In this document: positions 4,539 through 14,010 of the stretch, piece after piece | How the letters are laid out: each line of letters begins with the position of its first letter | Numbering within the stretch: position 1 is the first letter of the stretch | Source: an uncultured Aquabacterium sp. | GTDB taxonomy: Bacteria; Pseudomonadota; Gammaproteobacteria; Burkholderiales; Burkholderiaceae_C | DNA length: 47,757 bases | Assembly (NCBI RefSeq): GCF_947366995.1 | Contig: NZ_CANBCC010000025.1 | Span: forward strand, 1 to 47,757 | Reading direction: 5' to 3' | Made by a program: the position numbers and the translations under genes | The notes under the pieces: generated by a model | What the model saw: only the letters and a program-made list of their open reading frames with translations | What the model was told of the DNA's origin: nothing | Databases searched by the model: none

Positions 4539-4566
4539 GAGGCCTTGACCTATCCGTCAAGGCCTC
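4539..4566 (+). terminator. Intrinsic terminator after the YdcH-like gene
   Basis: A perfect 11-base-pair stem (gaggccttgac / gtcaaggcctc) with a six-base loop is followed by tttgctttg. It ends the transcript of the small gene and isolates metH from upstream transcription. Confidence 0.85.
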
Positions 4567-4602
4567 TTTGCTTTGCTGGCACACCCCAGCGGCCCCGCCT
4601 CG

Positions 4603-4608
4603 TAAAAT
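4603..4608 (+). promoter_or_regulatory. -10-like element directly before the metH start
   Basis: TAAAAT matches the -10 consensus in five of six positions and ends only 8 bases before the metH ATG. A transcript started from it would be essentially leaderless. No convincing -35 element is seen at 16-18 bases. Confidence 0.35.
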
Positions 4609-4616
4609 GGGCGGTT

Positions 4617-7430
4617 ATGACCGAAGCTGTCCGCCCCCCTCACGCCGCGCAAACCGGCACCCCGTCTCCCGCCGCCGTGGCGCCCATGCGCCTGTCCGGG
4701 CTGGAGCCCGTGCTGCTCGGCGAGGGCTCGCTGTTCGTCAACGTGGGCGAGCGCACCAACGTGACGGGCTCGAAGGCCTTTGCGCGCATGATCCTCGAGG
4801 GGCGATTCGAAGACGCCCTGTCGGTGGCGCGCCAGCAGGTCGAGAACGGCGCGCAGGTCATCGACATCAACATGGACGAGGCCATGCTGGACAGCAAGGC
4901 CGCCATGGTGCGTTTCCTGAACCTGATTGCGGGTGAGCCGGAGATCGCCCGCGTGCCCATCATGATCGACTCGTCCAAGTGGGACGTGATCGAGGCGGGC
5001 CTGAAGTGCATCCAGGGCAAGGGCATCGTCAACTCGATCTCGCTGAAGGAAGGCGTCGACGAGTTCAAGCGCCAGGCCCGCCTGATCAAGCGCTATGGCG
5101 CCGCCACCGTGGTGATGGCCTTCGACGAGGTCGGCCAGGCCGACACCTACCAGCGCAAGGTCGAGATCTGCGAGCGCGCCTATCGCATGCTGGTCGACGA
5201 GGTGGGCTTCCCGCCGGAAGACATCATCTTCGACCCGAACATCTTCGCGATCGCCACCGGCATCGAAGAGCACGACAACTACGCGGTCGACTTCATCAAC
5301 GCCACGCGCTGGATCAAGCAGAACCTGCCCGGCGCCAAGGTGTCGGGCGGCGTGTCGAACGTGTCGTTCAGCTTCCGCGGCAACGAGCCCGTGCGCGAAG
5401 CCATCCACACCGTGTTCCTGTACCACGCCATCCAGGCGGGCATGGACATGGGCATTGTCAACGCCGGCATGGTGGGCGTGTACGACCAGCTCGATGCGCA
5501 CCTGCGCGAGCTGGTGGAAGACGTGGTGCTCAACCGCAAGCCGGTCTACAAGGACTGCGAAGACACCTCGCTGACGCCGACCGAGCGCCTGCTGGGCATT
5601 GCCGAGCAGGTCAAGGGCGCAGCCAAGGACGACTCGGCCAAGCTGGCCTGGCGCGGCACGGCCGAGGAACCCGCACCGGTGGATCAACGACTGAGCCATG
5701 CCCTGATCCACGGCATCACCGAGTTCATCACACAGGACACGGAAGAATGCTGGCAGCAGATCAAGGCCCGGGGTGGCCGGCCGCTGCACGTGATCGAAGG
5801 CCCGCTGATGGCCGGCATGAACACCGTGGGTGACCTGTTCGGCGCGGGCAAGATGTTCCTGCCGCAGGTGGTGAAATCGGCCCGCGTGATGAAGCAGGCC
5901 GTGGCGCATCTGGTGCCCTACATCGAAGAAGAAAAGCGGCAGCTGGAAGCGGCCGGCGGTGACGTGAAGGCCAAGGGCAAGATCGTGATCGCGACCGTGA
6001 AGGGCGATGTGCACGACATCGGCAAGAACATCGTCACTGTGGTCCTGCAGTGCAACAACTTCGAGGTGGTCAACATGGGTGTGATGGTCCCGTGCCAGGA
6101 CATCCTCGCCAAGGCCAAGGAAGTGGGTGCCGACATCATCGGGCTGTCGGGCCTGATCACGCCGTCGCTGGAAGAGATGCAGTATGTGGCCGCCGAGATG
6201 GAGCGCGACCCGTACTTCCGCGAGCGCAAGACACCGCTGCTGATTGGCGGCGCCACGTGCAGCCGCGTGCACACCGCCGTGAAGATCGCGCCCAACTACA
6301 GCGGCCCGGTGGTGTACGTGCCCGACGCTTCGCGCGCCGTGGGCGTGTGCTCCGACCTGCTGAGCGAAGAACGCCACGCCGACTACATTGCCGAACTGAA
6401 CGCCGACTACGAGAAGGTACGCCAGCTGCACGCCAACAAGAAGGCCACGCCGCTGGTGTCGCTGGCCGAGGCGCGTGCCAACAAGGCCATCGTGAACTTC
6501 GAGACCCACACGCCCGAGGCGCCGAAGTTCATCGGCCGCCGCGTGTTCAAGAACTACGACCTCGGCGAGCTGGCTCCGTACATCGACTGGACGCCCTTCT
6601 TCCAGACCTGGGATCTGCATGGCCCCTTCCCTGCCATCCTGGATGACGCGGTGGTGGGCGAGCAGGCGCGCAAGGTGTATGCCGACGCGCAGGCCATGCT
6701 GAAGAAGATTGTCGACGGCCGCTGGCTGACGGCCAACGGCGTGATCGGCCTGTACCCGGCCAACACGGTAGAAGACGACGCCATCGTGCTGTATGCCGAG
6801 GAAGCCCGCACCACCGAGCTGATGCGCTGGCACCCGCTGCGCATGCAGAGCGAGCGGCCTGTCGTGGATGGGGTGAAACGCCCGAACCGCTCCTTGGCCG
6901 ACTTCGTGGCACCGAAGGGCGACAAGGCCGATTACATCGGCATGTTTGCCGTGACCGCCGGCCTGAACATCGAGAAGAAGGAAGCCGAGTTCATGGCCCA
7001 CCATGACGACTACTCGGCCATCATGCTCAAGGCCCTGGCCGACCGCCTGGCCGAGGCCTTTGCCGAGCGCATGCACGAGCGCGTGCGCAAGGAGTTCTGG
7101 GGCTATGCCGAGGCCGAGCAGCTCGACAACACGCAGCTCATCAAGGAGCAGTACCGCGGCATCCGCCCGGCACCGGGCTACCCAGCCTGCCCCGACCACA
7201 CGGTCAAGCGCGACATGTTCAAGGTGCTCGAGGCGCACGACATCCACATGCACCTGACCGAGAGCCTGGCGATGATGCCGGCGGCCAGTGTGAGCGGCTT
7301 CTACCTGTCACACCCCGACGCGACCTACTTCAACGTGGGCAAGATCGGCGGGGACCAGGTCGAGGACTGGGCGCAGCGCACGGGACACAGCCTGATGGAT
7401 GCGGAGCGGGCGCTGGCGCCGCTGTTGTGA
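4617..7430 (+). CDS. metH: Cobalamin-dependent methionine synthase lacking the homocysteine-binding module
   Basis: MetH transfers a methyl group from 5-methyltetrahydrofolate through cobalamin to homocysteine. At 937 residues this protein is about 300 shorter than full-length MetH. It begins at the pterin-binding module ([19 protein letters not shown], near residue 40). The B12 cap domain lies near 350-440, then the cobalamin domain with DVHDIG (axial His466), SGLITPS and GGATCSR. The AdoMet reactivation domain carries the RPAPGY motif (Arg850). The zinc-cysteine homocysteine domain is absent. In many Burkholderiales that domain is a separate gene just upstream; here the neighbour is the YdcH-like gene, so the partner must be elsewhere. 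The ATG at 4617 was preferred because the upstream ATG at 4545 lies inside the terminator hairpin. Confidence 0.95.
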
Positions 7431-7436
7431 GACAAC

Positions 7437-7465
7437 AGGAACGGGCCCCTTGCGCGGCCCCTCCT
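7437..7465. terminator. Hairpin between the convergent metH and PETase-like genes
   Basis: An interrupted inverted repeat (agg..gggcc / ggccc..cct) lies in the short convergent gap. It lacks a T-tract, so it would be a weak bidirectional terminator at best. Confidence 0.35.
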
Positions 7466-7482
7466 GCGTGCCATTCAGCAGA

Positions 7483-8925
7483 TCAGTACGGGCAGTTCTG
7501 CTTGTAACGTGTCACCACCTGGGGCGACACGGCCGGGCTGATGGCCGCCTCATGTTGCGCGCCGCAGAGGAACGGGCTGTATCGTGTGTCCTGATCGACG
7601 AAGCGCTTGAGCCAGGCCGTCACGTAGCGGGCGACCTTTTCTCGCTGAAGGGCCGGGGCCGAGGTGTTGGTGCACGCGCTGGAGCCTTTGAGCTCCATGA
7701 GCGCCTTGCTGACCGGGGCGGGCACAGTTTCATAGATCCGGTCAGCATGCGCCCGGGGGGGTGCAAAGGCATCGGACTGGCACGCCACGACCAGCGTCGG
7801 CACGGTCACCCCACTGTGGTCCTTGACCTGCGTTGCCGGTGCCAGCGCCACGACCGCTTTCACAGGCCCGTCAGCTCGGGCAAGCGCCATGGGCTGCCCG
7901 GTGCCATGGCCGAGCACGGCACGGCGGCTCGCATCAACCCGCCCGTACAGCGGGGTGCCCGCCTGGGCACTCCAATCCACCAGCTTTTGCAGCGCAGCCA
8001 GGCTTTGCGCATTGCGCGAAGCGGTCGAGTCGAAGAGCGAGCGGGTGTCATGGGCGACGATCACGAAGCCTTGAGACGCCAGCCTCTGCGCCAGCCAGGA
8101 CGTCGCACGGCGATCTTCCAGCAGGCCCGGTGCGATCACGGCCAGCGCGTACGGACGCTCCCCCTGGACATTCGGCCAATAGACCGTGGCGGAGGGCACA
8201 CCTGTCGCCGGCGGCAGCGCCATTGTGGCGACAGGGAAGGGTCCCGGCAGGCTGCCGAGCGTGGCATCCGGAGCGGGACCATGGGCCGTGTCGATGACCG
8301 GGCTCACGTCGAGCACGATGGTGCGATCGACGCCGTAGGCCCCGCTCTGGTTGCTGCGCAGGTACCAGGAGGCCAGTTCTGCCTGCCCTTGCACCCGGAG
8401 GATGTATCGCCCCGGGGACAGCGTCGCCTGCCCCTCGAAGCTCACTGGCACCGGGGTCTCAGTGGCGCCCTCCACCGCGTACAGGGCGTACTGCACGTTG
8501 CTGTTGCCGCCACCATAGACACTGCCGGCCGTCACCTGCACCGTGCTGCGTTGCGCGACGTCGAACGTGGCAGACATCTGCCCGGTGGCCTTGGCCAGTT
8601 CGTCGGCGGGCTGGCTGAACGCCGCTCTCAGGTACAGGCGCGCACGCAGTTGGGTGGTCGTTGCAGCGAGTTCGGCCTGCCCCTCGGCAGAGCTGGCCAA
8701 GCTCGTCGCCTTTGCCGTCAACAGCAGCGGTTGATCTGTACTGGTCCTCACATCCTGCGCAAAGGGCACTGGATTGAGCGGCACGTACATCGAACCCGAT
8801 TGGAGGGTGGCCGACAGCGCGCCCTGCTGGGCAACCATTTGCAACTGAGCCAAGGCGGCGGGCGAGCCTGCCAGCAGGCCGGCAGCCAGAGCCGCGGCGC
8901 CCCACTTGAAAGATGACGAATGCAT
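7483..8925 (-). CDS. Secreted PETase/polyester-hydrolase homologue with a destroyed catalytic triad
   Basis: The 480-residue protein starts with a signal peptide ending near ALAQ (residues 1-26). A beta-rich N-terminal region (about 30-230) is weakly like a pre-peptidase C-terminal (PPC) domain, with GQATLSPGRYILRV. Residues about 235-480 match Ideonella-type PETase along their length: RLASQGFVIVAHDTRS, GTPLYGRVDASRRAVLG, VTVPTLVVACQSDAFAP, AWLKRFVDQDTRYSPFLCG. All four disulfide cysteines of PETase are present (382, 418, 454, 478). The nucleophile motif GWSMGG is replaced by GHGTGQ (Gly341 for Ser) and the catalytic His by Ser416; only Asp385 remains. The protein is therefore predicted not to hydrolyse esters by the usual mechanism. 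The reading frame is intact. A binding role is possible but not shown. Confidence 0.85.
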   Translation of the reverse strand: MHSSSFKWGAAALAAGLLAGSPAALAQLQMVAQQGALSATLQSGSMYVPLNPVPFAQDVRTSTDQPLLLTAKATSLASSAEGQAELAATTTQLRARLYLRAAFSQPADELAKATGQMSATFDVAQRSTVQVTAGSVYGGGNSNVQYALYAVEGATETPVPVSFEGQATLSPGRYILRVQGQAELASWYLRSNQSGAYGVDRTIVLDVSPVIDTAHGPAPDATLGSLPGPFPVATMALPPATGVPSATVYWPNVQGERPYALAVIAPGLLEDRRATSWLAQRLASQGFVIVAHDTRSLFDSTASRNAQSLAALQKLVDWSAQAGTPLYGRVDASRRAVLGHGTGQPMALARADGPVKAVVALAPATQVKDHSGVTVPTLVVACQSDAFAPPRAHADRIYETVPAPVSKALMELKGSSACTNTSAPALQREKVARYVTAWLKRFVDQDTRYSPFLCGAQHEAAISPAVSPQVVTRYKQNCPY

Positions 8926-9087
8926 GGGTGAATCCTCTCTGGTTGGTTTTGTTGGCACGGGCCCCATCCATGTGCACGCCTGACAGCGTGTCGGAATGCT
9001 ACCTCCGCAGAAACGCCCCAAACCCTCACCCACCCTGTACCCGCCCCCCGATCGGACGACACATCGTGCGTCAGACCAGGGCCGGCC

Positions 9088-12033
<2,946 letters not shown>

Positions 12034-12121
12034 CGGGCAGTCAGCAGCAAGAAGAAGGCCCGCCTGCAGCCGCGCCGTGCCTTGAAAGGCAGGAGCCCGG
12101 CCACCGAAAGGGCAACCGGTC

Positions 12122-12127
12122 ATCATA
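12122..12127 (-). promoter_or_regulatory. uvrA -10-like element
   Basis: On the - strand TATGAT (five of six to consensus) lies about 90 bases upstream of the chosen uvrA start. It overlaps the alternative ATG codons at 12126 and 12123, which argues against those starts. The -35 region is poor. Confidence 0.35.
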
Positions 12128-12198: not shown

Positions 12199-13182
12199 TC
12201 AGCGCGCCAGATGCTGGCGGAAGAACGCCGTCTGACGCGCCACGACCTGCTCGAAGACCGGCCCGCTGTACGGCGAAAAATGGTGTGCGCCGGCCAGTTC
12301 GACGTACTCCCCCCGCGGCAGGGCCTTGGCCGTGTCACGCACCTTCTGCACGGGAATGAGCCCATCCTGCGCGGCGGCGATAACGAGCGTCGGCGCCTGC
12401 ACCTTGGGTGCGCTGTCGATCGGATAGAAGAAGGGCAGGCTGAAGAGGAAGCGCGCGGCCACCTTGTTCTCGCCCTCCTGCCCCTTGGGCACCAGCTTGC
12501 TGTAGCCCGCGACGCACTCGTCGCAGATCAGGGCCGCCGTGCTCCCGTCCGCCGAAATGATCGGCATGTAGAGCGGCGCCTCCCCTTCGCCGCGCAACGC
12601 ATCGCGGATGGCCATCCACATCGCCGCCGGCTGGTGCCTGAGCGGATAACGCAGGGCACTGGACAGGCCGTGCACGAACGGAACCTGCGAGCTCACCGCC
12701 TTGACGACCTGCGGCCGGCGTGACGCCGCGACCAGCACCTGGCCGCCGCTGTAGGACGAGCCCCAGATTCCGAGGCGCGATCCGTCCACATCCGGGCGCG
12801 CCGCCACGGCGTCGATCACCGACACCCAGTCGTCGACGTGGGCCGGACCGTCGACCACGCGACGCGGCTGGCCACCGCTGCGCCCGAAACCCCGGTAGTC
12901 GAAGCGCACCACGGCAAAGCCGGCCTGCACGAACCGATCGGCAAACGGGGTGAGCCCCCAGTCGCGCAGGGCACCAAAGCCGTGCGCCATGATGATCACC
13001 GGTGGCCGCGCCACCCCGGGCGGTCGACGGATTTCAGCGTCACACGTGGTGCCGCCACAGCGCACGCTGAGCGGCTCGGCGACGGCTCCCGCGGCCGCAG
13101 CATGGGCTGCCCCGGAAAGCACGGCAGCGGCCGCCACCCACGCAAAGGCGGAAAGACACCTGGGAAAAAGGGCCATGCGCAT
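12199..13182 (-). CDS. Secreted alpha/beta-hydrolase
   Basis: This 327-residue protein has a signal peptide (residues 1-30, ending AAHAAAAG) and an alpha/beta-hydrolase fold of the CocE/dienelactone-hydrolase-like type. The oxyanion region is MAHGFGALRDWG. The nucleophile is Ser143 in WGSSYSGG, with acid Asp in AAAQDGLIPV and base His in GAHHFSPY. An ester or amide substrate is likely, but the sequence does not show which. It is divergent from a TetR regulator whose start lies 132 bases away, so control by that regulator is plausible. Two close ATG codons (13182 and 13176) are equally possible starts. Confidence 0.85.
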   Translation of the reverse strand: MRMALFPRCLSAFAWVAAAAVLSGAAHAAAAGAVAEPLSVRCGGTTCDAEIRRPPGVARPPVIIMAHGFGALRDWGLTPFADRFVQAGFAVVRFDYRGFGRSGGQPRRVVDGPAHVDDWVSVIDAVAARPDVDGSRLGIWGSSYSGGQVLVAASRRPQVVKAVSSQVPFVHGLSSALRYPLRHQPAAMWMAIRDALRGEGEAPLYMPIISADGSTAALICDECVAGYSKLVPKGQEGENKVAARFLFSLPFFYPIDSAPKVQAPTLVIAAAQDGLIPVQKVRDTAKALPRGEYVELAGAHHFSPYSGPVFEQVVARQTAFFRQHLAR

Positions 13183-13192
13183 GATAAAAAGC

Positions 13193-13206
13193 GTCTTTGA
13201 ACAGAC
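13193..13206. promoter_or_regulatory. Imperfect dyad near the alpha/beta-hydrolase start
   Basis: GTCTTTGAACAGAC is an imperfect palindrome with GTCT/AGAC arms, 10 bases upstream of the hydrolase start, in the divergent gap with the TetR gene. It could be the TetR operator. Evidence is positional only. Confidence 0.2.
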
Positions 13207-13314
13207 AGCGGGAGAACGGTGCCAGATCGTACCCAGGGCTCCGTGCGTGCTTTCGCTGTTTCGCCCCAGCCCTGACAGTCGATCCTGCTGGGTGGGCTCA
13301 TCTCCTGCCACGCC

Positions 13315-14010
13315 ATGTCTCAGACCCTCTTTCATGCCCCGCTGATGTCGATGCCCGCCTCGGCCGATCCCGAGTCCCTCGGCACCACGACGGCAACGCC
13401 CCCCACACCCGACCATCGCAGCCGCCTGATGACGGCGATGGGCACCACCCTCGTCCACAAGCCCTACGGCGAGATCACGATCGCCGACGTCGTGGCCGAG
13501 GCACGGGTGTCGAAGCGCACCTTCTACGAGCAGTTCGCCAGCAAGGACGAGTGCCTGCTGGCCCTGTGCGAACTGCTGAGCGAACGCACGCTGGCCGTGA
13601 TGTCCGAAGGGTTTGACCCGGACAAGGACTGGATGGCGCAGCTCAACTGGGTGATCGAGGCCTACCTCGGCAACATCCAGAAGCAGCCCGCACTGATCCG
13701 CACGCTGTGCGTGGAGCTGCTCAACCTCGGCGCCCCGGGCCTGGCCGTGCGCCGTGCCATCCTGCAGCGCTTCGTGAACTTCCTGATCCGTCAGGTCGAA
13801 CTCTCGCGCCAGCACGAGCCGGGCCGTCTGCCGCTGTCGCACAACCTTGCCATGGCGGTGGTCGGTGGCGTCAACGAGCTGATCCTCGAGGCGATCGAAC
13901 AGGGTCGCGGGGATCGCTTGCTTGATCTGGCCCCCGAGGTGGAGGCCTTCGTGAAGGCCGTGCTCGACGCCCTCGAACCGCACGCGCGCTCAGCGCACGG
14001 CGCGCGCTGA
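13315..14010 (+). CDS. TetR/AcrR family transcriptional regulator
   Basis: The 231-residue protein has an N-terminal TetR helix-turn-helix (about residues 36-80: MTAMGTTLVHKPYGEITIAD, VSKRTFYEQFASKDECLL). A helical ligand-binding and dimerisation domain follows. The first 30 residues are a Ser/Pro/Thr-rich extension. It is probably a repressor. The divergent alpha/beta-hydrolase gene is the obvious candidate target. The ligand is not predictable from sequence. Confidence 0.9.
   Translation: MSQTLFHAPLMSMPASADPESLGTTTATPPTPDHRSRLMTAMGTTLVHKPYGEITIADVVAEARVSKRTFYEQFASKDECLLALCELLSERTLAVMSEGFDPDKDWMAQLNWVIEAYLGNIQKQPALIRTLCVELLNLGAPGLAVRRAILQRFVNFLIRQVELSRQHEPGRLPLSHNLAMAVVGGVNELILEAIEQGRGDRLLDLAPEVEAFVKAVLDALEPHARSAHGAR

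Follow-up and report, generated by a model that had tools for sequence, protein, structure and literature searches.

A PETase-family protein without its catalytic serine and histidine, maintained at the uvrA-metH locus of Aquabacterium

Introduction

PETase-like sequences that lack PETase activity have been described before. One recent study (PMC12224614, ISME J. 2025) calls them "pseudo-PETases", treats them as variants that act on other substrates or derive from pseudogenes, and grades them by motifs M1-M5, where M1 comes from the helix bearing the catalytic Ser and M4 is [PG]-G-[YF]. The term has the same sense in PMC12976661. Among the PET-active enzymes of PMC9772341, conservation of the triad is reported to be almost universal, with one enzyme having an alternative His. 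In a review of pseudoenzymes (PMC10211241), no word begins with hydrolase, esterase or lipase. Among the listed titles and opening lines of abstracts from open-licence papers, we found no PETase-family protein that is kept by selection without its triad, which does not prove that none is in print.

The protein described here comes from an uncultured Aquabacterium sp. (GCF_947366995.1, contig NZ_CANBCC010000025.1; genome G000 below). We refer to the whole stretch of DNA that was analysed, 47,757 nucleotides, as the window.

The gene and its two domains

The gene lies on the minus strand at 7483..8925 and encodes 480 amino acids, with its ATG at 8925, its stop codon at 7483-7485 and zero internal stops. 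Seven bases 5' of the ATG there is a putative ribosome binding site, GAGAGGA (8933..8939, minus strand), and the same letters can be read 5' of the gene in a second genome, G005. An open reading frame of 505 aa on the plus strand (7399-8916) we take to be the mirror frame of GC-rich DNA, as homology backs the minus strand.

Read by eye, residues 1-26 (8848..8925, minus strand) look like a Sec-type signal peptide that ends AALA-QLQ and is without a lipobox Cys, and the G005 protein starts in a similar way. Residues 27-212 (8290..8847, minus strand) make up an N-terminal domain predicted by low-confidence models to be mostly beta strands, and residues 213-480 (7486..8289, minus strand) make up the PETase-fold domain. 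PF12740 matches residues 215-464 of the latter with 189.2 bits against a cut-off of 28 (E 1.2e-55), which rules out chance similarity to the PETase family, and the G005 allele scores 157.8 bits, also above the curated cut-off of 28. There are 176 distinct PDB sequences that match the protein at E<=0.01, the best being 7cwq (1.4e-51). The predicted structure superposes on a PETase-like cutinase at 1.6 Å over 264 residues and has the PETase alpha/beta-hydrolase fold.

Four cysteines on this domain, Cys382 (7780-7782), Cys418 (7672-7674), Cys454 (7564-7566) and Cys478 (7492..7494, all minus strand), align with the cysteines of those relatives that have them. Cys382 and Cys418 align with the C203-C239-type pair of the relatives that have it, and also with allele B, the form of the gene in G005. 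The pairing itself, Cys382 with Cys418 and Cys454 with Cys478, is by homology with PETase structures. The first-pass annotation, made from the letters alone, had described an intact frame with a clean signal peptide, an added beta-rich N-terminal domain and a PETase-like C-terminal region with two disulfide pairs, one of them equivalent to C203-C239. This description holds, with the beta-rich character of the N-terminal domain and the superposition both resting on models.

The N-terminal domain appears to be restricted to a small clade. It has zero Pfam matches at E<=10, and it is present in 3/42 genomes of the genus, where the match in G005 is weak (E 0.009) and is backed by the full-length alignment as well. 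When residues 26-212 were used as the query of a word-based search through 5.8 billion proteins, one database protein, P0002, was returned and the G005 allele was missed, so the sensitivity of this search is limited. A sequence search of the PDB gave two matches (E 0.16 and 1.3). The domain's own model is poor (mean pLDDT 46.5) and Foldseek found nothing for it at E<=0.001; the weak leads above that threshold are collagen-binding and carbohydrate-binding beta-sandwiches.

Loss of the catalytic site

In place of a GxSMGG-like nucleophile elbow, the protein has G-H-G-T-G-Q at residues 339-344 (7894..7911, minus strand). The same site reads G-H-G-A-G-Q in genome G038 and in P0002, and G-Q-G-A-G-Q in G005. 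In these four clade members we found no GxSxG, GxCxG or GDS anywhere. In the multiple alignments the window has GH--GTGQPM at the elbow, G038 and P0002 have GH--GAGQPM and G005 has GQ--GAGQPL, compared to sequences such as GHSMGGGGSL or GWSMGGGGSL in the relatives. The GGGG run reads GTGQ or GAGQ here, and the elbow and its helix are two residues shorter in all four. The MAFFT multiple alignments place this two-residue gap on Ser-Met, which are the nucleophile and the next (oxyanion) residue. The pairwise PDB alignments are divided: of the three printed, 7cwq has the gap on Ser-Met, while 7dzt and 7dzu, variants of one protein, have it further on, which fits a Ser to Gly change. Since the multiple alignments put the shared deficit on Ser-Met, we do not adopt a single-nucleotide Ser to Gly loss; a shared deletion of Ser-Met may explain the site as well as or better than one substitution step, with the alignments in disagreement.

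The site where the catalytic His would be expected reads GSSAC (residues 414-418, 7672..7686, minus strand). One residue is also missing here, and for this reason the His column of allele A falls on Ser416 in the phmmer alignments and on Ala417 in MAFFT; in allele B it is Gly. Under every alignment neither the catalytic Ser nor the catalytic His is present (4/4 clade members). Asp385 (7771..7773, minus strand), the sole triad residue left, is invariant across the multiple alignments. The first-pass annotation had reported the Ser and His as replaced by Gly341, one transition from an AGC codon, and by Ser416; the absence of both stands, while the first assignment depends on where the gap is placed and the second on the alignment used.

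The surroundings of the site have changed as well. The third residue of the P-G-[FY] motif is F or Y in 51/51 other domains from the genus, and it is Leu (PGL) in allele A and Pro (PGP) in allele B, so that the [PG]-G-[YF] motif of the oxyanion site and aromatic clamp is absent from both. The change at this position would be a further inactivating one, and proline has no backbone NH. The Trp of APW(D), also noted earlier as lost, is indeed Ala364 in the window and Gln in allele B, though this Trp is present in only 44/51 other genus domains and is therefore not universal.

Relatives of the protein

The loss is common to G038, whose protein is 97% identical, and to G005, whose protein (489 aa) is 37% identical over its full length, and both genes are at the same uvrA-metH locus. 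Strong PF12740 matches occur at 54 places in the 42 genus genomes. Three of these are the clade, one runs off its contig before reaching the His column, and the remaining 50/50 have Ser-Asp-His; three places in this count (one in G015, two in G009) were chosen by their Ser motif and are independently Ser-Asp-His in another count. In an alternative count, where identical 50-residue cores were merged and matches below 60 bits dropped, 48 of 52 near-full genus domains have Ser-Asp-His. The triad is also kept in 13/13 near-full domains checked in other genera of the family and in 22/22 database relatives (P0003-P0024). The genus is rich in PETase-family genes, which are patchily distributed: there are 51 strong places besides the clade in the 42 genomes and up to five in one genome (G020).

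A quickly built tree of 87 domains groups the four clade rows with an SH-aLRT of 99, and their stem measures 0.71 changes per column. This grouping is to be read with a long-branch warning since it joins two long branches, and with the 83 other rows having been selected for Ser-Asp-His. All four members also have the N-terminal domain in common, and the three with known context have the same locus. The simplest reading of this shared loss would be one event before the two alleles split.

Among 399 sampled genomes of the family, with at most four candidates scored per genome, the only full-length match is in G000, with partial matches in 21 others, and among 399 genomes of the order, scored in the same way, only G000 matches at E<=1e-20. 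Five plasmid records match, at 28-37% identity, none over more than 80% of the query.

Selection on the gene

Between G000 and G038 we counted 45.5 synonymous changes over 391 sites and 14.5 nonsynonymous changes over 1049 sites, where about 122 of the latter would be expected under neutrality (Fisher p 1e-15). The resulting dN/dS is 0.11, similar in the two parts of the protein (0.14 for residues 1-212 and 0.10 for residues 213-480), compared to 0.10 for metH and 0.06 for uvrA on either side. On this one genome pair, the gene is under strong purifying selection and is maintained rather than decaying, which speaks strongly against plain decay. Between alleles A and B synonymous sites are saturated, so their dN/dS is left out and the measurement applies to recent evolution, after the long stem. 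Maintenance is further supported by an open frame in both alleles, by database clusters of 24 and 7 member sequences, and by the four cysteines kept at 37% identity.

Given the conserved absence of the catalytic motifs, a predicted fold that is kept and purifying selection, this protein would be classed as a pseudoenzyme. The suggestion in the first-pass annotation that it is maintained and not decaying is thus upheld, both by this selection test and by a loss common to two deeply diverged alleles.

The flank comparison excludes three sets of open reading frames: the frame at 12199-13983 (90% in G005, 77% in G038 and G006), which seems to include 267 non-coding codons; the overlapping pairs near 22-2270, one member of each being spurious; and 2421-2927, which is at 94% in G005 and at 73% and saturated in G038.

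The uvrA-metH locus

Upstream of the gene and co-directional with it is uvrA (9088..12126, minus strand), and convergent with it on the other side is metH, the B12-dependent methionine synthase (4545..7430, plus strand; start codon uncertain), both identified by their Pfam domains. The order uvrA-pseudoenzyme-metH is found in G038 and G005 too. Further upstream of uvrA is the gene of an alpha/beta hydrolase (12199-13182, minus strand). Its product, about 327 aa long, apparently starts with a signal peptide, and its GSSYSGG elbow is intact. For this gene the listed frame (12199-13983) seems to begin 267 codons too early.

Between uvrA and metH the gene is present as allele A in G000 and G038 and as allele B in G005, and it is absent from G006. 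Between G000 and G005, pS is 0.11-0.23 at uvrA, metH and three more neighbours (95-99.6% protein identity), compared to 0.57 at the pseudoenzyme gene, or 0.53 for the hydrolase domain alone. As a yardstick, pS is 0.40-0.64 between pairs of different PETase-family genes that share less than 60% identity. The two alleles are therefore much older than their flanks, as would be seen after replacement by recombination or transfer, and the locus looks as if it has been exchanged between lineages. Allele A has a GC3 of 0.80 in G000, against 0.845-0.908 in the five neighbours compared, and allele B has 0.89.

The uvrA and metH of G006 match their G038 counterparts at 98.6-98.7% identity, and the roughly 60 bases that separate them in G006 contain no gene; the assembly is 86% complete, yet it does cover the empty site. 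Given these near-identical flanks, the pseudoenzyme gene is dispensable, a point against the reading proposed below. The slot is also empty in G024 and G029, and in five genomes (G003, G018, G031, G035 and G037) it holds a pair of long genes, presumably of the DUF1800/DUF1501 type, in a gap of 3.5-5.8 kb; the gap in G037 also has a sensor-kinase-like gene. The loci compared for this gap were L118-L122, L114, L116 and L117, and the remaining genus genomes were read there to 1.5 kb.

What the protein may do

Because the fold, the cysteines and the signal peptide are kept while the chemistry is gone, we consider a secreted binding protein the best reading: the product is probably a two-domain pseudoenzyme that has lost catalysis and acts by binding. 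Its ancestor in the Aquabacterium lineage would have been an active hydrolase of the PETase family that acquired the extra beta-rich N-terminal domain and whose hydrolase domain lost the catalytic apparatus, perhaps in a single event, before the two known alleles split, with the fold and the four cysteines retained afterward. Once exported, the protein would use its N-terminal domain together with the reshaped surface around the old elbow (G-x-G-[TA]-G-Q-P) to bind, but not cleave, a ligand, a surface or a partner protein, and the uvrA-metH interval would be a slot in which the gene can be exchanged. There are 23 residues common to both alleles and rare in relatives, of which eight fall in 305-345 (including Gln344-Pro345 at the old elbow) and seven in 208-238. 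Binding may also fall to the N-terminal domain, the second candidate.

A bolder reading, which we regard as possible but less likely, is that of an extracellular pseudo-PETase that is maintained while it diversifies rapidly, with alleles swapped among Aquabacterium lineages at the fixed uvrA-metH slot and the dead fold serving as a recognition module. Swapping of this kind would resemble what is seen in surface-exposed proteins under diversifying pressure.

The binding could be more specific, with a non-catalytic surface protein that attaches to polyester (PET, a cutin-like polymer or polyhydroxyalkanoate) through the old PETase cleft; the first-pass annotation had also raised polymer binding. 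The PETase fold, secretion, the extra domain and its weak matches to collagen- and carbohydrate-binding beta-sandwiches (none at E<=0.001) are in keeping with this. However, the clamp positions hold Leu or Pro and Ala or Gln in place of Tyr or Phe and Trp, and the GGGG run has become GTGQ or GAGQ, so we judge this narrower version unlikely. With the aromatic clamp residues that would touch PET lost in both alleles, PET in particular is an unlikely ligand.

Slightly less probable again is that the protein is still a hydrolase, with its nucleophile and base relocated. Asp385 and the fold are retained, seven serines are conserved between the alleles (208, 284, 296 and 319 in or adjoining the hydrolase domain), and His393 is conserved too, the sole other common His being His2 in the signal peptide. 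There is also a precedent in PET hydrolase 305, which is reported in PMC9772341 to have an alternative His in its triad. However, His393 aligns with a His common in ordinary Ser-Asp-His relatives and so is no new base, all four clade members are without the nucleophile motifs listed above, and the oxyanion positions are altered, with a Pro at one of these in allele B.

Regulation of active relatives by pseudoenzymes is known, the literature on iRhoms being an instance, and the protein had been proposed earlier as a possible decoy; here the decoy or regulator would act on a PETase paralogue that is active in the cell. Besides the dead gene, G005 carries an ordinary PETase-family gene (G005:C1:3588844-3589614), but G000 and G038 are without any other clear PETase-family domain, their other PF12740 matches being at 19-23 bits (none above 20 in G000 or above 23 in G038, where one reaches 28.7 bits with its frame neighbours, just above the cut-off of 28). 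This weakens the proposal, and a decoy for a sister PETase is unlikely in these two genomes, and the reading as a whole is improbable.

A pseudogene on its way out, to which the missing catalytic residues, the low GC3 in G000 and the absence from G006 might point, is hardly credible given a dN/dS of 0.11 and intact frames with all four cysteines in both alleles.

Comparison with known systems

Sequence mining for enzymes of use in plastic recycling covers the PETase family, and on a PF12740 match alone the protein of the window would be included. A secreted binding protein, our preferred reading, would mean that the PETase fold can be kept by selection for a non-hydrolytic purpose, and the two deeply diverged alleles offer a ready comparison for finding the ligand of the dead fold.

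The protein resembles IsPETase and the PETase-like cutinases (PF12740; 7cwq, 7dzt, 5xjh) in its predicted C-terminal fold, its DxDTRYS helix, its four cysteines, its catalytic Asp and its signal peptide. It differs from them in having no catalytic Ser or His, in its changed oxyanion and aromatic-clamp positions, in the loss of GGGG and in the extra N-terminal domain of 186 residues. The model for bis(hydroxyethyl) terephthalate hydrolase, NF051441, matches residues 215-479, but its 173.3 bits are far below the equivalog cut-off of 520.

Three two-domain PETase-family proteins (P0006, P0008 and P0009) likewise have an N-terminal extension of comparable length before the PETase domain. Unlike the protein of the window, they keep Ser-Asp-His, and their N-terminal parts have no significant match to its own (best BLASTP E 0.07); the word-based search with residues 26-212 did not return them either. 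Their extension contains a GCYGCTDG or GCFGCTPG stretch.

The pseudo-PETases of PMC12224614 are among the nearest in kind, being PETase-like sequences held to lack PET hydrolysis. Unlike those, the protein described here is missing the Ser and the His themselves, and selection maintains its gene.
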